Below are positions 54,122 to 60,608 of a DNA stretch of 64,000 nucleotides, in pieces. The translations under genes and the position numbers were made by a program. The notes under the pieces were generated by a model, which did not search any database, was not told the DNA's origin, and was given only the letters and a program-made list of their open reading frames with translations. Where the stretch lies: the NCBI RefSeq assembly GCF_001187505.1, contig NZ_CP012150.1, forward strand, positions 6,668,048 to 6,732,047, given 5' to 3'. Every line of letters starts with the position of its first letter. Position 1 is the stretch's first letter. This stretch comes from Mycolicibacterium goodii (GTDB lineage Bacteria > Actinomycetota > Actinomycetes > Mycobacteriales > Mycobacteriaceae).

Positions 54122-54652
54122 TCAGAAGTCGCCGGAGTTGCGGCGCAGCGTCTCGATGGACGACGCGAGCGCGCGGGACTCCTCGTCGGACATCCCGACA
54201 TCGGCGAACACCTGCTTGTTGAGCGTGACGGTCGCATCCTCGACGGTGGAGCGGCCCAGGTCGGTGATGCGCACCAGCGTGGTGCGGCCGTCGGTCGGAT
54301 GCGGGACTCGCTCGACCAGGCCCGCGGCCTCCAACCGCCGGATCGCATGGGTGACGCTGGTGACGTGCACCTGCAGCCGGTCCGAGGCCTTGGTGATGGG
54401 CAGTGCCCCGGACCGGCTGAAGGCCAGCAGGCGCAGCAGTTCGAACCGGGAGAAGCTCAGGTCGTAGGGGCGCAGCGCGTTCTCCACCCGGGCCAGCAGG
54501 ATCTGGTGGGCCCGCATGACCGAGGTGACCGCGACCATCCCGTCGGCGACGTCACCCCACCCGGCCGCATCCCAGTTGGCGCGGGCCAGCGCGATGGGGT
54601 CGGCCTGGTCGGCATGGTCGGCGGGATCGCCGGCTTCCGGTGAGGAGGGCAC
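54122..54652 (-). CDS. MarR-family transcriptional regulator
   Basis: The 176-residue protein has a winged-helix MarR domain: LSFSRFELLRLLAFSRSGAL, then ASDRLQVHVTSVTHAIRRLE, the wing VERVPHPTDGRTTLVRITDL. The N-terminus is an Asp/Ala-rich arm. It starts at GTG 54652, 35 bp after the aminotransferase stop on the same strand, so it could be cotranscribed with the four-gene biosynthetic cluster. In M. tuberculosis, from memory, a MarR gene (Rv0737) follows rslA directly; this looks like its orthologue. Confidence 0.85.
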   Translation of the reverse strand: MPSSPEAGDPADHADQADPIALARANWDAAGWGDVADGMVAVTSVMRAHQILLARVENALRPYDLSFSRFELLRLLAFSRSGALPITKASDRLQVHVTSVTHAIRRLEAAGLVERVPHPTDGRTTLVRITDLGRSTVEDATVTLNKQVFADVGMSDEESRALASSIETLRRNSGDF

Positions 54653-54687: not shown

Positions 54688-55722
54688 TCACGGCAAAGCC
54701 AGGCGCGTTGCGCGCAACACCGCGCGGGTGGATTCCCGCGTGCCGACCGTGATGCGCACCCCGCCGTCGGCGTAGTGGCGCACCCGCAGCCCGCAGTTGT
54801 CGAACACCTCGCGCCACGGCACCCCCGCGGCGGGCAGGTACACGAAGTTGGCCTGACCGTCGGTGCTGTAGACGCCCATCGAGCGCAGCCGCAACTGCAG
54901 GAACCGCCGCTCCGCGGAGATCATCCGGATGCGTTGGCGCAGCTGACCTTCGGCGTCGTAGGAGGCCGCGACCGCGACGAGTGCGGGCAACCCGATGCCG
55001 AACGGCAACTGCATGGCCCACAGCTGACGCGCGAGTTGGGGTGCGCAGAAGCCGTAGCCGATCCGCAGGCCGGCCAGCCCGTACGCCTTGGAAAAGGTGC
55101 GCACCACCACGACATTGCGGAAACGTTCGACCAGGCGCGGCCCGTCGATGCGGTTGGCGGGGCCGAGGAACTCGACGTAGGCCTCGTCGAGGATCACCAC
55201 GGTGTCGGCGGGCACGCTCTGAAGGAACCGCTCGATGTCCTCGGCCGGTTCGATCGTGCCGGTGGGGTTGTGCGGGCGGCACACCACCACGACGCGGGCC
55301 TGCCGCGCGGCGTCGGCCATCGCGTTGAGGTTGTGGTGGCCGTACACGTCGAGGTCGACGGTCACCGACCGCAGCCGGGCCATCTGGGCGAAGATCGGGT
55401 ACCCGTCGAAGGTCGGTGCCGACATCACCATGGTGTCGCCGGGACTGGTGACCGCATGCAGCACCTGCATGATGACGCCGGTCGCGCCGACCCCGATGAT
55501 CACCTGCCCCTCGTTCACCCCGACCCGCCCCGCGATCAGCGACCGCAACCGCTCGGGCAGGAACTCCGGATACCGGTTGGCGGCGTCCACCGCGGTGCTC
55601 AGCGCGGCCTTCACCGCGGGCAACGGCGGATACGGGAACTCGTTGAGCGACAGGGCCAATGGGTTGACGGCAGGCGGGAGCGCATCGACCGCCTCGACCA
55701 GGGTGCCACGCGGGGCGACCAT
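54688..55722 (-). CDS. PLP-dependent aminotransferase class I/II (HisC-like)
   Basis: The 344-residue fold-type I enzyme has ALSLNEFPYPPLPAVKAAL, GATGVIMQVLHAVTSPGD, CRPHNPTGTIEP, VILDEAYVEFLG and the PLP-lysine in RTFSKAYGLAGLRIGYG. It resembles histidinol-phosphate or aromatic aminotransferases. ATG 55722 shares a base with the ketosynthase stop (TGATG). As the last enzyme of the SigL-linked cluster it may aminate a ketone made by the ThDP enzyme or ketosynthase. A role in histidine synthesis is unlikely in this context. Confidence 0.85.
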   Translation of the reverse strand: MVAPRGTLVEAVDALPPAVNPLALSLNEFPYPPLPAVKAALSTAVDAANRYPEFLPERLRSLIAGRVGVNEGQVIIGVGATGVIMQVLHAVTSPGDTMVMSAPTFDGYPIFAQMARLRSVTVDLDVYGHHNLNAMADAARQARVVVVCRPHNPTGTIEPAEDIERFLQSVPADTVVILDEAYVEFLGPANRIDGPRLVERFRNVVVVRTFSKAYGLAGLRIGYGFCAPQLARQLWAMQLPFGIGLPALVAVAASYDAEGQLRQRIRMISAERRFLQLRLRSMGVYSTDGQANFVYLPAAGVPWREVFDNCGLRVRHYADGGVRITVGTRESTRAVLRATRLALP

Positions 55723-56753
55723 CAGGCCCGGCCTCCCCAGCGGACCGCCGCCGCGCCGGCGAAGTCGCCGGCATGCGCGAACGCCGCCATCAGCACCGTG
55801 TCGCCTGCCTTGACCCGGCCGTCGGTGACCGCCCGGTCGAAGTTGATCGGGATGCCCGCGCCGAAGAGGTTGCCGCAGGTGTCGAACGTGTCGACGTGCC
55901 GTTCGTCGGGCAACTCCAGGGCCTCGCGCCAGTTGCGCAGGAACACCCGGTTGGGCTGGTTGGTGACGAACAGGTCGACGTCTTTGGGGCGGATGCCGAT
56001 CCGGTCGCACACCGCATACGACACCTCGGGGACCTGCCGGTTGCCCCGCGCCAGCACCTTGGTGATCTTGCTCTCGGTGAACCCGATGTACCCCTCCCCC
56101 GGTCCGGGCTGCCACCACTTGCGCGGCGGGTCCGACGCGATGGTCATGTCCCCGGCGTACTCGCCGTAGGTGCGGCATTCGACGTCGAGGATCGGCGACG
56201 CGTCCGACACCGTGACGAGGCCGACGGCGGCACCGTCACCGGGTACCGACGCCTGCGCCTTGCGGCGGATGGTCTCCTGGTCGAAGATCTGGCCTGCGGC
56301 GTTCTGCGCCACCGCGATCAGCGCGGTGTGCCCTTCACCCGACGCCAGCAGGTTGCGCGCCAACTTCAGGCCGAGGACGAAGGCCGCGCAGCCCCCGTTG
56401 TGCAGGTCGATCACCCAGTTGGGCTTGAGACCGAGGCGGTGTGCCATGCCGCCACCGCCGCCGTAGAACGGCACGTCGGGCATCTGGGTGTGCGTGATGA
56501 GCACATCGGCGCCGAGGACCGTGTCCGCACCGTGGCGTTCGATCAGCCCGGCCGCGGCCCGCTCGATCATGTCGATCGCGGTCTCGTCGGGGGCCACGTG
56601 GTGGCGGAACCGCGGCGCCCGGAACATCAGGTTGTCGCGCAGGTCGTCGGTCTCGGCGAACTGGGCGTAGTAGTCGGCACCGATCGGCTCACCGGGCAGG
56701 TAGGTGGACACGTCGACGAGGCTGACGGGGATGGTGTTCATGGGGGCTCTCAT
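55722..56753 (-). CDS. 3-oxoacyl-ACP synthase III family protein (FabH-like) with altered triad
   Basis: The 343-residue thiolase-fold protein has nucleophile Cys122 in VIDLHNGGCAAFVLGLKLA and Asn295 in DTCGNLFGAG, as in FabH. The position of the catalytic His, normally in HQAN, reads TNQPN (Asn265). Decarboxylating ketosynthases need that His, so this enzyme may use a non-decarboxylating or acyl-transfer reaction. ATG 56753 overlaps the SRPBCC stop (ATGA). It is the third gene of the ThDP cluster. Confidence 0.85.
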   Translation of the reverse strand: MRAPMNTIPVSLVDVSTYLPGEPIGADYYAQFAETDDLRDNLMFRAPRFRHHVAPDETAIDMIERAAAGLIERHGADTVLGADVLITHTQMPDVPFYGGGGGMAHRLGLKPNWVIDLHNGGCAAFVLGLKLARNLLASGEGHTALIAVAQNAAGQIFDQETIRRKAQASVPGDGAAVGLVTVSDASPILDVECRTYGEYAGDMTIASDPPRKWWQPGPGEGYIGFTESKITKVLARGNRQVPEVSYAVCDRIGIRPKDVDLFVTNQPNRVFLRNWREALELPDERHVDTFDTCGNLFGAGIPINFDRAVTDGRVKAGDTVLMAAFAHAGDFAGAAAVRWGGRA

Positions 56754-57430
56754 TTCATCCAGGCCGGGGTGAGCGGCAGACCGTTGCGGTGGCGGTATTC
56801 GGCGATTGCCTTGAGGTTCTTCAGTTCCAGCAGGTGACCGGGGCCGAACATGTCCCAGAAATCACCCACCCACACCGGCCGCCCCGGCGGCGCGGTCTCC
56901 GGGTACGGGTTCTTGTCGTAGAACGGGTGGTGGCAATTCGTCCACAGCACAACCGATCCCGGCTTGTCGAACACCACCTGGGCGTCGACGATGCGCATCA
57001 GGTAGATCATCCACAGGTGTTTGCCCTGATCCCACGCGCAGTGGTAGTCCACCGTCATCGCGTCGCGGTTGGCGACGGTGCGGGTGTAGATCGCGCTGCC
57101 GGGTCCGCCGCCGCCCTCCCCGAGGCGGTCGTGGGCCACCCACAGTCCCGGCTCCTCGGTGGTGGCGAAACCCCGGAGGCTGTAGGTCCATTCCTCGAGG
57201 CTGCGGGTGTCGGCGAGGTAGTCGAACAGTTCGTCGGGCGGGCATGCGATGTAGTCGTTGACCGTGCAGTACTCGCCGTAGACCTGCTCGTGCGGGTACA
57301 CCGAGCGCATCATCTCCATGATGATCGGGGTCGCGGCCTCCTTGGGTGAGGTCTCGATCCGGATGAGCCCGTCGATGGGTTCGGCGGTCCCCCGGTGGGT
57401 GGTGATGTCTTCAAGCGCGGGCAGTGGCAT
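56750..57430 (-). CDS. SRPBCC/START-like protein
   Basis: The 226-residue protein has an SRPBCC-type start to its domain near residue 55 (VYGEYCTVNDYIACPPDELF, DYLADTRSLEEWTYSLRGF), then strands with VTVANRDAMTVDYHCAWDQG-like sequence and VVFDKPGSVVLWTNCHHPFY. The fold is used by polyketide cyclases and lipid-binding proteins. It starts at ATG 57430 with AGGAG upstream and overlaps the ThDP gene by 20 bp. I cannot tell whether it is a catalyst or a carrier. Confidence 0.7.
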   Translation of the reverse strand: MPLPALEDITTHRGTAEPIDGLIRIETSPKEAATPIIMEMMRSVYPHEQVYGEYCTVNDYIACPPDELFDYLADTRSLEEWTYSLRGFATTEEPGLWVAHDRLGEGGGGPGSAIYTRTVANRDAMTVDYHCAWDQGKHLWMIYLMRIVDAQVVFDKPGSVVLWTNCHHPFYDKNPYPETAPPGRPVWVGDFWDMFGPGHLLELKNLKAIAEYRHRNGLPLTPAWMK

Positions 57431-59150
57431 GGGAATCGCTCTCCTGGGTGATCGAAGTTGTTGTGGTCGTGGTGAGAAACGCTGCGAAAGGCGGGATTTC
57501 ATCGGGTGAGCATTCGACGCTGACGACCGAGGGGCCGTCGGTGCGCAGTGCGGCGTCCAGGGCCGCGGGCAGTCCGTCGATGTCGTCGACGTCGATCGCG
57601 GTCAGTCCGGGCAGCATGGCGGCGAGGCCCGTCCCCAACCGGCTCGGGCCGAATCGGTTGTAGCTGTAGCGGTCCTGGTAGAACAGCTGCTCGCGCGTGA
57701 CGCACATGGCGTGCGCGTGGTTGTCGAACAGCAGGAACGTGATGGGCAGCCGGTACTGCACCGCGGTGTGGATCTCCATGCCGTGCATGAAGAATGAGCC
57801 GTCACCGGCGATCACCACGGTACGCCGCGGCCCGTGCGGGCCGGGCCGTTGGGCGCGGTGGAATGTCATCCCGATACCGGCGCCGAAGCTGTAACCCATG
57901 CCGCCCATGCCGAGTGCGACCAGGAAGCGCCCGTCGCGGCGCACCGGCAGGTGGTGGATGGCCGACGCGCCGATGTTGCCCGCGTCGACGACGATGTCGG
58001 TGCCGTCGGGCAGCATGCGGTCGAGGACCCGCATGGCCTCGCGGTACCGGATGCCCGGCCCCTCGTGCGGCGGTGTCGGTAATTCGGTGCGCGGCACCGT
58101 GTCCGGGACGCGTATCTGATGTGGCCTGCCGTTGCCGGTGAGCGCTTCGGCGAGCATCGTCAGCGCGCCGCGCAGATCGTCGGTGTGGACGTGGGTGGCG
58201 GGCACGTACGGTTGCTGCGCTCCGATCGAGTACGTCGGCACCGAACCAAGCACGCCGTCGAGTCCGGCGCGGGCCGTGACGCTCATGCGCGTACCGACCA
58301 GCAGGCAGGCGCCGCTGCCCGCGGCCGCGGCGACGACGCCGGGATGGCCCATCACCCCGGAGACGCCCAGCGCGGACGAGGATCCGAAACCTGGTGTGCC
58401 GCCGACATCTTTGGCGTCGGGTACGGTCGCGATCCGGGCGCGCAGGGTTGCGCGCAGCCGTTCGAGTTCGGCCCGGGCGTCGTCCCTGGCGACCTGTTCG
58501 CCTGCGAAGATCGTGATGGGCCCGTCGGCACGCCGCAGTCCCCGCACCATCATGTTCAGATCGGAGATTCTGGTTCCGAGTTGCATACCGGGCAAGCCGC
58601 CGTTGACGTGTGCCGGTTCGGCAGGCTCGGCCTGCTGGATGTTCTTGGGCAGCAACAACACTGCCGGTCCTCCGGTGCGCGCGGCGGCCAGCGCCTGGGG
58701 CAGCACGGTGTGGATCGCCTCGGGTGACATCACCCGACGGCAGTACACGCTCACGGCCGAGAACAGCGCCAGCGCGTCGAGCGCGCCGTTGTCGCCGCTG
58801 GTGTCCTGGAACGACCCGTGGCCGTCGAGCGTGGTCGGCGGTTGCCCGATCAGGGCGAGCACCGGAACCCGGCTGGCGAGCGATTCGCCGAGCCCCGGCA
58901 CCGTGTTGAGGCAACCACCACCGGAGGTCGCGGCCACCACACCGATCCCGGCGCCGCTGCGGCTGTAACCATCTGCCATTGCCGCAGCGGAGAATTCGTG
59001 TTTGGCAAGCACCGCGGTGATGTCGTCACGAAAGAACGCCGCATCGTAGAGATCCTCGATGTTGGCTCCGTCGACCCCGAAGATGTGGCTGATCCCGCTC
59101 TGTGCGAGATAGCCGACGATGCGGTCTACCACTCTGCGCCCATTGGCCAT
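57411..59150 (-). CDS. Thiamine-diphosphate-dependent enzyme (acetolactate-synthase-like)
   Basis: The 579-residue protein has the catalytic Glu52 in VLAKHEFSAAAMADGYSR, a central domain, and the ThDP/Mg motif GDGSFFMHGMEIHTAVQYRL followed by LFDNHAHAM. Family members join a 2-oxoacid-derived acyl anion to an aldehyde, ketone or acyl group. It begins the four-gene overlapping cluster at ATG 59150, with GGGAG before it and a SigL-type promoter 30 bp upstream. It does not look like the housekeeping IlvB (no acetolactate-specific insert recognised). Its product is unknown. Confidence 0.87.
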   Translation of the reverse strand: MANGRRVVDRIVGYLAQSGISHIFGVDGANIEDLYDAAFFRDDITAVLAKHEFSAAAMADGYSRSGAGIGVVAATSGGGCLNTVPGLGESLASRVPVLALIGQPPTTLDGHGSFQDTSGDNGALDALALFSAVSVYCRRVMSPEAIHTVLPQALAAARTGGPAVLLLPKNIQQAEPAEPAHVNGGLPGMQLGTRISDLNMMVRGLRRADGPITIFAGEQVARDDARAELERLRATLRARIATVPDAKDVGGTPGFGSSSALGVSGVMGHPGVVAAAAGSGACLLVGTRMSVTARAGLDGVLGSVPTYSIGAQQPYVPATHVHTDDLRGALTMLAEALTGNGRPHQIRVPDTVPRTELPTPPHEGPGIRYREAMRVLDRMLPDGTDIVVDAGNIGASAIHHLPVRRDGRFLVALGMGGMGYSFGAGIGMTFHRAQRPGPHGPRRTVVIAGDGSFFMHGMEIHTAVQYRLPITFLLFDNHAHAMCVTREQLFYQDRYSYNRFGPSRLGTGLAAMLPGLTAIDVDDIDGLPAALDAALRTDGPSVVSVECSPDEIPPFAAFLTTTTTTSITQESDSHATARA

Positions 59151-59179
59151 CTGTCACCTACTCCCGTCGTGTGCCTAGT

Positions 59180-59207
59180 GACACGAGGGGTGAGCAGAAC
59201 CGGTTCA
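59180..59207 (-). promoter_or_regulatory. SigL-type promoter of the ThDP/ketosynthase cluster
   Basis: On the minus strand TGAACC (59207-59202) and CGTGTC (59185-59180) are 16 bp apart, a full match to the SigL consensus as I recall it (TGAACC, 16-18 bp, CGTgtr). The predicted start near 59173 leaves about 23 nt before the ThDP enzyme ATG. The sigL promoter itself at 60581-60608 has the same layout with TGAACT and CGTATC. Confidence 0.8.
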
Positions 59208-59292: not shown

Positions 59293-60027
59293 TCAGAGCT
59301 TCTTTTCGAGCAGGACTTTCCCGTCGGCGACCGAGACCATCTGGATCGCGGCGATGTCGTCTTTGGGCTTCTGGGTGTTGCCACTGGGCAGTGCGGTCGC
59401 ATTGGTCAATCCCAGCCAGGTGGCGACCTGCTCGCGGCTGCCGTCCCGGCCGACCACCACCATGCCCAGGTCCTGCGGCGGGGCGCCCTTGCTGCCCCAG
59501 TCGCCGTATGAGCACGCCATGTCGATCCGCGTGCCCCAGCTGTAGCTCGTCAGCGCGATGCTGGCGTTGATCGGGGTGTCGGCGACCTTCGACATCTCCA
59601 GCATCTGCGCGGTCTGCTGCTCGGTTCCGCGCTGCAGGCCGAAGACCTCGGGGCGGGCCAGCACGACGATGCCGAATGCCAGCAGCGCCGCGGCGAGTGC
59701 GGCCACCGATGTCGTCACCCACCGGTTGCGACGCCTGCGGGCGTCGACCTTGGCCATGACCGAGTCCAGCACCTCGGGGCGCAGCGGCGGATCGGGCTGC
59801 CCGGCGTCGATGGCGTTCACGTCGTCGATGTCGATCATCGCGAGCAGCGCGGGTATGCCGCTGAGTTCGGCGACGCCGGCGCGGCAGTGCGCGCACGTGC
59901 TCAGGTGCGCTTCGTATTCGCGGCGCTCCGCACTCGACAGGGAACCGAGCACATATGCCGCGTCCCACGTCGAGTACCGGTCGGGGTCGGCCGGCCCGAT
60001 CCGATGGGGTTCTCCGAGTTGAGTCAT
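59293..60027 (-). CDS. rslA: Anti-sigma-L factor RslA
   Basis: The 244-residue protein has the zinc anti-sigma motif His41-x3-Cys45-x2-Cys48 (HLSTCAHC), one membrane helix (about 103-122) and an extracytoplasmic domain. It binds and silences SigL and releases it when the zinc site is oxidised or the outer domain is signalled. ATG 60027 overlaps the sigL TGA (ATGA), so sigma and anti-sigma are made in step. About 140 bp separate it from the next cluster, which has its own SigL promoter. Confidence 0.93.
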   Translation of the reverse strand: MTQLGEPHRIGPADPDRYSTWDAAYVLGSLSSAERREYEAHLSTCAHCRAGVAELSGIPALLAMIDIDDVNAIDAGQPDPPLRPEVLDSVMAKVDARRRRNRWVTTSVAALAAALLAFGIVVLARPEVFGLQRGTEQQTAQMLEMSKVADTPINASIALTSYSWGTRIDMACSYGDWGSKGAPPQDLGMVVVGRDGSREQVATWLGLTNATALPSGNTQKPKDDIAAIQMVSVADGKVLLEKKL

Positions 60028-60563
60028 CGTGTCACCCCCATTTCCTGCAAGTTCAGTTTCAGCGCGCGGACCGCGTAGTGCAGCCGCGATTTCACGGTGC
60101 CCTCGGGTATCTGCAGCTCGGCCGCGATCTGCCCGGTGGTCTGTCCCTGGTAGTACGCGCGCCGGATCACCGCCCGATGGTCATCGGAGAGCTGGCTGAG
60201 GGCGGTGCTCAACAGAAGCCGGTCCAACGCGGTATCCACCTGGTCGGGGGTGGCGTGATCGGCCACCTGTTCTGGGTCGGGGACGTCGGTCTCGTTGCGG
60301 AAACGAGCGCTGCGTCGTTCATCGATAATCATGTTGCGTGCCACGGTGAAAAGCCAGGCCCGCGGCGAGCGGTCGGGGCCGATGCCATCGGCTCCGCCAC
60401 CGGTGCGGAGGTCGGGTTGGTGGCGCCACGCGCGCAGCAGCGTCTCCTGCACAACATCCTCGGCCCGCGCGCGGTCGCCGGTCAGGCGTAGCGCGTATCG
60501 CCACAGTGCGGTGGCGTGCTCGTCGTAGAGCGCCCGCATCATGGCGGCCTCCGGATCCTCCAT
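60024..60563 (-). CDS. sigL: ECF RNA polymerase sigma factor SigL
   Basis: The 179-residue ECF sigma has region 2 (LYDEHATALWRYALRLTGDR ... DVVQETLLRAWRH, AWLFTVARNMIIDERRSARF) and region 4 (LSTALSQLSDDHRAVIRRAY, QIPEGTVKSRLHYAVRAL). It should read promoters of the TGAACC/CGTgtr type. ATG 60563 is 6 bp after GGAGG; a TTG two codons earlier is possible. It is preceded by its own SigL-type promoter and coupled to rslA. Confidence 0.93.
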   Translation of the reverse strand: MEDPEAAMMRALYDEHATALWRYALRLTGDRARAEDVVQETLLRAWRHQPDLRTGGGADGIGPDRSPRAWLFTVARNMIIDERRSARFRNETDVPDPEQVADHATPDQVDTALDRLLLSTALSQLSDDHRAVIRRAYYQGQTTGQIAAELQIPEGTVKSRLHYAVRALKLNLQEMGVTR

Positions 60564-60580
60564 TCCCAACCTCCGTCTTT

Positions 60581-60608
60581 GATACGACGTTGGGCGTGAT
60601 CCAGTTCA
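60581..60608 (-). promoter_or_regulatory. SigL-type autoregulated promoter of sigL-rslA
   Basis: On the minus strand TGAAC (60608-60604) and CGTATC (60586-60581) have 17 bp between them (16 after the sixth base TGAACT). This is the expected autoregulatory site of sigL, known in M. tuberculosis. It sits between mapA and sigL, allowing separate transcription from the secY-adk-mapA operon. Confidence 0.7.

Follow-up and report, generated by a model that had tools for sequence, protein, structure and literature searches.

A conserved four-gene cassette behind a SigL-type promoter in Mycolicibacterium goodii: a probable variant carbazole core pathway

Results

Genetic organization of the locus

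The analyzed stretch of M. goodii DNA (64 kb; referred to as the window) contains a cassette of four minus-strand genes, located downstream of sigL and rslA and upstream of a MarR gene. The features of the locus are as follows:

54122..54652 (-): marR (Rv0737/Ms_1492 type by position), downstream border; assigned from Pfam and position
54688..55722 (-): HisC-like PLP aminotransferase, 344 aa; class I/II, PF00155
55722..56753 (-): KASIII-like condensing enzyme (CqsB1/NzsJ-like), 343 aa; PF08541, PF08545
56750..57430 (-): SRPBCC/Bet v1-like, carbazole-synthase-like cyclase (CqsB2/NzsI-like), 226 aa
57411..59150 (-): ThDP-dependent carboligase (CqsB3/NzsH-like), 579 aa; PF02775, PF02776
59180..59207 (-): SigL-type promoter of the four-gene operon, TGAACC-N16-CGTGTC; exact match
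59293..60027 (-): rslA, anti-sigma factor; zf-HC2, HXXXCXXC = HLSTCAHC
60024..60569 (-): sigL, ECF sigma factor; PF04542/PF04545, NF007227 272.9 bits (cut-off 202)
60581..60608 (-): SigL-type promoter of sigL-rslA, TGAACT-N16-CGTATC; relaxed-pattern match, autoregulation predicted

The ORF positions agree with an earlier note on this DNA, which had described four genes overlapping end to end; successive genes, in the order ThDP-SRPBCC-KASIII-aminotransferase, overlap by 20, 4 and 1 nt. These overlaps and the co-occurrence of the core genes (see below) uphold the view that the genes form a single operon and, very probably, act in a single pathway. The start of the SRPBCC gene was taken as the ATG at 57430 (a longer ORF form begins at 57502), and this short form is favoured by most own-genus relatives among the matches listed, which align from its residue 1. 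The aminotransferase also has a longer ORF form, reaching 56178.

Pfam confirmed the predicted identities of the ThDP, KASIII-like and aminotransferase proteins, and the enzyme classes identified bear out the idea that the cassette builds a small molecule. For the SRPBCC protein, CqsB2 was the only PDB sequence match at E ≤ 1e-3 and by far the best fold match; no Pfam match was obtained at the same threshold.

Conservation of the catalytic residues

Residues D101, Y143, Y171, H199 and E202 of the SRPBCC protein align with E105, Y144, Y172, H206 and E209 of CqsB2. Equivalents of the last four, which would be expected of the carbazole synthase of a carbazole core, occur in all 123 loci compared (a number that includes the window's own locus and may count the same species twice). 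The Glu105 position is occupied by Asp in the window and in all 111 window-branch loci, and in the 12 CQS-type loci by Glu (9), Asp (2) or a gap (1).

The ThDP enzyme carries the cofactor residues Glu52, Asp450 and Asn477 at the expected positions. In a quick tree, the cluster ThDP proteins form one supported clade, separate from seven own-genome paralogues, within which the window branch is the sister clade of the CqsB3/NzsH type. The window enzyme and the CqsB3-type enzyme also share their two best PDB matches, so that a ThDP carboligase of the CqsB3/NzsH clade, as expected of a carbazole core, is likewise present.

The site of the KASIII-like enzyme is Cys122-Asn265-Asn295 instead of Cys-His-Asn. 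The window branch has Cys-Asn-Asn in 110 of 111 loci and Gly-Asn-Asn in the remaining one; the catalytic His is found in 12/12 CQS-type loci, with Asn at this position in the 111 others. Thus none of the window-branch loci encodes a KASIII partner with a Cys-His-Asn site, and the condensation may therefore differ from that catalyzed by CqsB1. Phe87 gates the pocket of FabH; the acyl chain length could not be read from the corresponding region of the KASIII pocket.

The closest PDB match of the aminotransferase is 4r2n, a "putative phenylalanine aminotransferase". In a tree weakened by long branches, the Streptomyces aminotransferases group with own-genome HisC-type paralogues and have no specific link to the window enzyme, which was therefore rejected as a proven CqsB7 orthologue. 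An aminotransferase match was absent in 18 of the 80 named CqsB2-type loci. The enzyme probably converts an aromatic amino acid into a 2-oxo acid, the role of CqsB7/NzsD, and a HisC-like aminotransferase also stands at the start of the chlocarbazomycin cluster. It most likely acts first in the pathway, rather than last.

SigL-type promoters and RslA

The full TGAACC-N16-CGTGTC promoter reported earlier ahead of the cassette was found as an exact match, and the operon thus has the SigL consensus promoter expected of a SigL regulon member. The relaxed pattern TGAACY-N16-CGTRTC matches only twice in the 64 kb (0.05 expected, 100 shuffles), namely at this promoter and upstream of sigL. Conservation supports the assignment: TGAAC[CTG]-N15-18-CGT was present, at most 200 nt from the start codon, in 40 of 41 own-genus promoters, and the reversed pattern, used as a control, in none. 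The 41 comprise the window and 40 own-genus genomes (40/200) from the upper part of the ThDP match list, and nearer relatives are therefore over-represented. The single miss (L205) is uninformative, as the stretch examined stops some 200 nt short of the start codon, on its upstream side.

A stricter motif was found upstream of the ThDP gene in 14 of 78 sequences including the window (13/77 named loci), with approximately 1.3 of 78 expected from its background density. All 13 named loci belong to the 30 mycobacterial ones in which the ThDP start could be located; none of the 47 non-mycobacterial loci was positive. Within the locus DNA examined, a SigL match was absent in 10 of 32 named mycobacterial loci. 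The M. goodii genome contains 14 motif sites, at least one of them intragenic (L132, inside the ORF at L157:3638-5032); the motif also immediately precedes a type III PKS gene, after which comes a gene for an ICMT-type methyltransferase.

RslA has the HXXXCXXC zinc motif characteristic of ZAS redox anti-sigma factors, and redox behaviour is known for RslA of M. tuberculosis (accessible text of PMC2877774). Judged from the promoter sequences, transcription of the cassette is predicted to be controlled by SigL.

Distribution of the cassette

The earlier note had proposed a search for conserved co-occurrence. The three core genes (ThDP, SRPBCC, KASIII) occur jointly in 196 of 297 own-genus genomes, more than expected by chance, and only 10 genomes have part of the set. 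The 80 named loci found via CqsB2-type genes all contain a KASIII-like gene, and 78 a ThDP homologue. The same three families occur jointly in Nostoc, Scytonema, Syntrophus and Streptomyces; five Streptomyces loci (L039-L043; CqsB2 or its 81-98% relatives) contain homologues of all four genes. In some other mycobacteria, aromatic tailoring genes (FAD hydroxylase, O-methyltransferases, P450) lie beside the core.

Of the 95 own-genus genomes that lack the SRPBCC gene, 12, all from the 20 that were listed, were surveyed for the empty site. SigL (E ≤ 1e-30) was present in nine, eight of which have SigL, RslA and MarR in one contiguous run, with marR abutting rslA; for the ninth (L166), the stretch examined showed no MarR. 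A tenth SigL locus (L167) is a distant second copy, and one of the 12 genomes (G012) has a ThDP match.

Judging by the numbers Ms_1488 and Ms_1492 in the accessible text of PMC13002591, MSMEG_1488-1491 seem to be the cassette genes; in that study, the Ms_1488 promoter was the negative control when binding by a MarR-type regulator, not by SigL, was assayed. Literature on MSMEG_1486-1491 amounted to two papers with one locus tag each, and in one paper MSMEG_1488 is upregulated with two G-quadruplex ligands.

Discussion

Predicted pathway

The gene identities, conserved catalytic residues, co-inheritance and promoter conservation observed here point to a bacterial carbazole core pathway in a variant form under SigL control, a reading to which we assign a probability of roughly two in three. 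Oxidation of RslA would release SigL, which would transcribe its own operon and the cassette. In the predicted route, (i) the aminotransferase would turn an aromatic amino acid into its 2-oxo acid, most likely tryptophan into indole-3-pyruvate, (ii) the ThDP enzyme would perform a ligation, (iii) the KASIII-like enzyme would load an acyl group onto Cys122 and condense it with the keto acid, with loss of CO2, and (iv) the SRPBCC enzyme would close a new ring onto indole C2 and aromatize it. The small acyloin or aminoketone proposed earlier as the end product was not supported; an acyloin keto acid would probably be formed only on the way to the final product.

Neither a dedicated acyl carrier protein (ACP) nor a second KASIII was found near the cassette, and the acyl donor is therefore probably an ordinary fatty acyl-CoA or acyl-ACP. 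With such a donor, the pathway would yield a 1-alkyl-2-methylcarbazole that bears a 3-hydroxyl or 3,4-dioxygenation, a lipocarbazole- or carbazoquinocin-like compound that may act as a membrane antioxidant or redox lipid. The 3-hydroxy (mono-oxygenated) form would need a reductase, and none is encoded in the operon. The papers listed by the literature searches included no report of a mycobacterial carbazole.

Alternative explanations

The same reaction logic could start from a non-indole 2-oxo acid (phenylpyruvate, 4-hydroxyphenylpyruvate) and lead to an aromatic of the naphthalene or phenol type rather than to a carbazole. The distance of the window ThDP and KASIII-like proteins from the Streptomyces enzymes, and both the best PDB match and the tree of the aminotransferase, fit this rather unlikely route. 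However, every locus examined retains four of the five residues proposed for CqsB2 catalysis, the fifth being a conservative Asp, and a benzene ring should be a poorer nucleophile than indole C2 for a CqsB2-type closure. Moreover, the one branch species known to us with a reported product of this class, Tsukamurella pseudospumae, makes carbazoles, being named for lipocarbazoles in a reference title. Less probable still is an Asn-type KASIII that transfers its acyl group to the acyloin oxygen (CerJ/PtmR-like), leaving another role for the SRPBCC protein and yielding an acylated acyloin. The near-invariant Asn-type site would suit such a transfer, and indole-containing esters are described in the literature as arising spontaneously from the CqsB1 product. 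Yet the His may not be needed, since beta-keto acids readily lose CO2, and the ring-closing SRPBCC residues are intact. Furthermore, in named mycobacterial loci the SRPBCC protein (70-83% identical to that of the window) shows much the same conservation as the KASIII-like protein (65-85%), and is better conserved than the ThDP enzyme (64-71%) or the aminotransferase (60-76%).

Three of the four proteins belong to large superfamilies with many paralogues, and the genes could in principle be chance neighbours acting in separate pathways. Co-occurrence, also across distant genera, and conserved order contradict this, in line with the end-to-end overlaps and with a single ORF of Streptomyces wedmorensis that spans KASIII-like and SRPBCC parts. 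The earlier note had also drawn an analogy with PigD/PigE of prodigiosin side-chain synthesis, presumably likewise a ThDP enzyme with an aminotransferase. That system is not known to include a KASIII/SRPBCC cyclase pair like that of carbazole pathways; since the cassette has one, an aminoketone route of this type is not favoured.

Significance

If the carbazole reading is correct, the cassette, conserved in most sampled species of the genus and placed behind a redox-sensitive sigma factor, would provide SigL with a concrete metabolic output, and many mycobacteria may make an unrecognized antioxidant-like aromatic molecule under oxidative stress. Aromatic lipids under SigL might be radical scavengers or alternative electron carriers. 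The Asn-type KASIII may represent a new catalytic variant for making carbon-carbon bonds, which raises the question of how such a ketosynthase works without its catalytic histidine. Carbazole alkaloids have been reported from streptomycetes and some other bacteria. The cassette provides candidate genes for lipocarbazoles and for mono-oxygenated carbazoles, the machinery for which was yet to be identified according to a 2020 review. Only tentatively do we extend this to the full picture, in which about two thirds of mycobacterial species would have a redox-sigma-controlled route, not encoded at the corresponding place in M. tuberculosis, to a membrane lipid of the carbazole or carbazole-quinone type, SigL (with the type III PKS operon) would be a switch for redox-active aromatic lipids, the Asn-type KASIII would be a new variant and the branch would supply the lipocarbazole genes.

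Comparison with known systems

The SigL regulon of M. tuberculosis has the same sigma/anti-sigma pair, and its consensus is presumably the same as the motif found here. In that species, rv0737 lies immediately downstream of sigL-rslA and pks10 is a reported SigL target (accessible text of PMC13002591). The cassette is therefore not at that place in M. tuberculosis, in agreement with the earlier remark that no such genes lie between rslA and the MarR gene there.

The T. pseudospumae genome searched is that of JCM 13375, whereas the producer is strain Acta 1857; it has one CqsB2-family gene, which belongs to the window's branch. This locus, one of the 18 above that lack an aminotransferase match, resembles the window in its ThDP-SRPBCC-KASIII order, its Asn-type KASIII and the identity of its SRPBCC (69%) and KASIII-like (50-52%) proteins; it differs in a flavodoxin-like gene upstream and in the absence of aminotransferase, SigL or RslA matches within 20.5 kb.

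The nearest characterized system is the carbazole core of carquinostatin and neocarazostatin (CqsB7-B3-B1-B2; NzsD-H-J-I). The window differs from it in (i) the replacement of the KASIII catalytic His by Asn, (ii) Asp in place of Glu105, (iii) the lack of a prenyltransferase, (iv) its gene order and ECF sigma-type promoter and (v) an aminotransferase that is not specifically related. A dedicated ACP (CqsB6/NzsE), also expected of such a core, was matched by tblastn with two ACPs only in L039-L043 (80 loci and the window stretch), and none turned up when 17 kb of the window were scanned with a coarse motif. The papers listed by the literature searches did not explain the PDB names BbmA/CsmA. 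The two systems have all four enzyme classes in common: in comparison with L039-L043, identity is modest for the ThDP (34-36%) and KASIII-like (24-27%) proteins and reaches 40-45% for the aminotransferase and 38-43% for the SRPBCC protein, in which the four catalytic residues are kept.

Operon and genomic site

The cassette is encoded by four minus-strand genes with successive overlaps of 20, 4 and 1 nt, as the earlier note had described in calling them overlapping end to end, and is flanked by rslA on one side and the marR gene on the other:

54688-59150, minus strand: ThDP enzyme, SRPBCC protein, KASIII-like protein and class I/II aminotransferase

A genome co-occurrence search of the kind proposed in the same note revealed that three of these genes are inherited together. 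The SRPBCC (E≤1e-3), KASIII-like (E≤1e-60) and ThDP (E≤1e-90) genes occur in 202, 199 and 200 of the 297 own-genus genomes, respectively; 196 contain all three and 206 at least one. Several own-genus genomes carry two SRPBCC copies. Within a phylum-wide sample, the SRPBCC gene was found in 14/396 genomes (10 of them own-genus).

The stretches surrounding 32 named mycobacterial loci contain homologs of RslA (29), MarR (29) and SigL (22). A search of 12 of the 95 own-genus genomes without the SRPBCC gene revealed SigL, RslA and MarR to be contiguous in 8 of the 9 bearing SigL: the cassette fills exactly the RslA-MarR gap. In M. tuberculosis, rv0737 is described as lying directly downstream of sigL-rslA (PMC13002591), which leaves that site without the cassette and fits the earlier claim that this species has no such genes between rslA and the MarR gene.

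SigL-type promoter and proposed redox control

The relaxed pattern TGAACY-N16-CGTRTC has exactly two matches in the 64 kb (0.05 expected):

Upstream of the four-gene operon: relaxed-pattern match
Upstream of sigL: relaxed-pattern match

The SigL-type promoter postulated at the operon by the earlier note is thus present. Of 41 own-genus promoters, the window's among them, 40 carry the sequence TGAAC[CTG]-N15-18-CGT, with varying spacers, no more than 200 nt from the ThDP start, compared with 0/41 for the reversed pattern and 0.37 expected from mononucleotide shuffles. RslA was found in 38 of the 41 promoter stretches (1.4 kb each), in 6 of these approx. 0.7-0.8 kb farther upstream than in the window. 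A stricter pattern was positive in 13/30 named mycobacterial loci and 0/47 other loci; control through this SigL consensus therefore looks, from its distribution, mycobacterial and not universal. Oxidized RslA of M. tuberculosis is reported to lose zinc and to grip SigL more weakly (PMC2877774), and the window RslA carries an identical zinc motif. In M. tuberculosis, pks7/pks10 are reported to be SigL-dependent (PMC13002591).

In the whole genome of M. goodii the strict motif occurs at 14 sites (reversed control, 1), including one before the first two of the following genes and one before the third:

L156:8165-9253, minus strand: type III polyketide synthase (PKS) gene (with the next gene, approx. 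265660-267250 of the genome's contig, G000:C1)
L156:7662-8174, minus strand: ICMT-type methyltransferase gene, following the PKS gene
L138:1500-3026 (G000:C1 from 3099242): MMPL-family transporter gene, strict motif 80 nt upstream

The motif directly before the PKS gene ends 7 nt from a possible ATG, and the transcript is therefore perhaps leaderless. The MMPL-family product could be a lipid exporter belonging to the same regulon. The ICMT-like Rv1139c is presumably a SigL target in M. tuberculosis. In M. smegmatis, a type III PKS operon is reported to yield polyketide quinones (PMC9927152), and MSMEG_1488, which would be the ThDP gene of that species, to be upregulated with BRACO-19 and TMPyP4 (PMC8931766).

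Proposed carbazole core and predicted product

The four enzyme classes of the cassette are those of the carquinostatin/neocarazostatin core, in which, according to a 2020 review, (i) the aminotransferase CqsB7 converts Trp to indole-3-pyruvate, (ii) the ThDP enzyme CqsB3/NzsH couples this with pyruvate, (iii) KASIII-like CqsB1/NzsJ performs decarboxylative condensation with 3-hydroxybutyryl-ACP and (iv) CqsB2/NzsI closes the ring. For NzsH, the donor is given as indole-3-pyruvate and the acceptor as pyruvate (PMC9822442). Named carbazole producers are described as keeping nzsH/nzsJ/nzsI homologs, with a HisC-like aminotransferase in the chlocarbazomycin cluster (PMC10100901). GTDB species genomes were scanned with a CqsB2-led alignment; among the best 80 of 494 relatives, homologs of the KASIII-like protein (80/80 loci), the ThDP enzyme (78/80) and a same-strand aminotransferase of approx. 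40% identity or more (60/80) were present. Streptomyces loci L039-L043 contain homologs of all four genes. Among the top matches listed from an open-access library, none connected mycobacteria to a carbazole pathway.

Beside the core of several other mycobacterial loci lie genes for an FMO-like oxidoreductase, a FAD_binding_4 enzyme, a FAD_binding_3 hydroxylase, O-methyltransferases or a P450 (annotated from one representative per family), enzymes of the kinds that decorate phenols and carbazoles. The window operon itself contains no such tailoring genes; its product would therefore be an undecorated core, or be finished elsewhere. In the larger cassettes of some mycobacterial loci (L066, L081, L084, L097, L099, L106), genes for FMO-like and FAD enzymes precede the ThDP gene, mostly with an RslA-like gene directly before it; O-methyltransferase, hydroxylase and another ECF sigma gene lie downstream.

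The best hint of product class, an indirect one, comes from Tsukamurella pseudospumae, for which lipocarbazoles are named. Their common frame is reported as 1-alkyl-2-methylcarbazole (PMC11350554); they are classed as 3-oxygenated, and the 2020 review describes the mono-oxygenated type as one whose machinery is still to be identified. The only CqsB2-family gene of strain JCM 13375, a strain other than the producer, lies in a ThDP-SRPBCC-KASIII locus (L100) of the window's branch, in which an aminotransferase was looked for and not found. Just upstream of its ThDP gene is:

L100:7681-8229: flavodoxin-like gene

The analysis demonstrates conserved residues and joint inheritance. We infer which substrate and acyl donor the cassette uses, what it makes and does, and its dependence on SigL. 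The most likely working order is that a redox signal would set SigL free, followed by transamination by the aminotransferase, ThDP ligation, KASIII condensation and cyclization, which would give a 1-alkyl-2-methylcarbazole. By our atom count, the redox-neutral outcome of these four enzymes alone would be a catechol/ortho-quinone, as for CqsB2, and a 3-hydroxy lipocarbazole would require a reductant; the flavodoxin-like protein could be its source for a mono-oxygenated carbazole.

Comparison with the CQS/NZS type

The family splits into a carquinostatin type (L039-L050; Streptomyces, Nostoc/Scytonema, Syntrophus) and the window's type (mycobacteria, Nocardia, Gordonia, Segniliparus, Tsukamurella, Streptacidiphilus and others). 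Across 123 loci, which include the window's own and among which species may recur, the distinguishing KASIII residue is conserved: THQPN with the catalytic His in 12/12 carquinostatin-type loci, Asn in its place in 111/111 of the window's type. The Cys and second Asn of the site are retained, with L088 (Mycobacterium bohemicum) the sole exception; its Cys-to-Gly change possibly reflects a decayed copy or sequencing error. In SRPBCC and KASIII trees (quick method, 37 rows each) the types are parted by a branch with SH-aLRT 100. For the ThDP gene the split is imperfect: L058, a Planctomycetota locus whose KASIII is Asn-type, groups with the carquinostatin side.

In Streptomyces wedmorensis (L044:8810-10588), KASIII-like and CqsB2-like parts form a single continuous 593-aa ORF, apparently a natural condensing enzyme-cyclase fusion. 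The Nostoc, Scytonema and Syntrophus cores (L045-L050) are of the carquinostatin type with a His-type KASIII; their SRPBCC proteins are 58-61% identical to CqsB2, and their gene neighbors are unlike those in Streptomyces.

Acyl carrier protein homologs were found in L039-L043 only (80 loci and the window stretch searched), and none near the window's operon. Because, unlike the CQS/NZS type, its KASIII-like protein lacks the catalytic His and the cassette lacks the carrier protein, we place it outside that type and regard it as a variant carbazole core.
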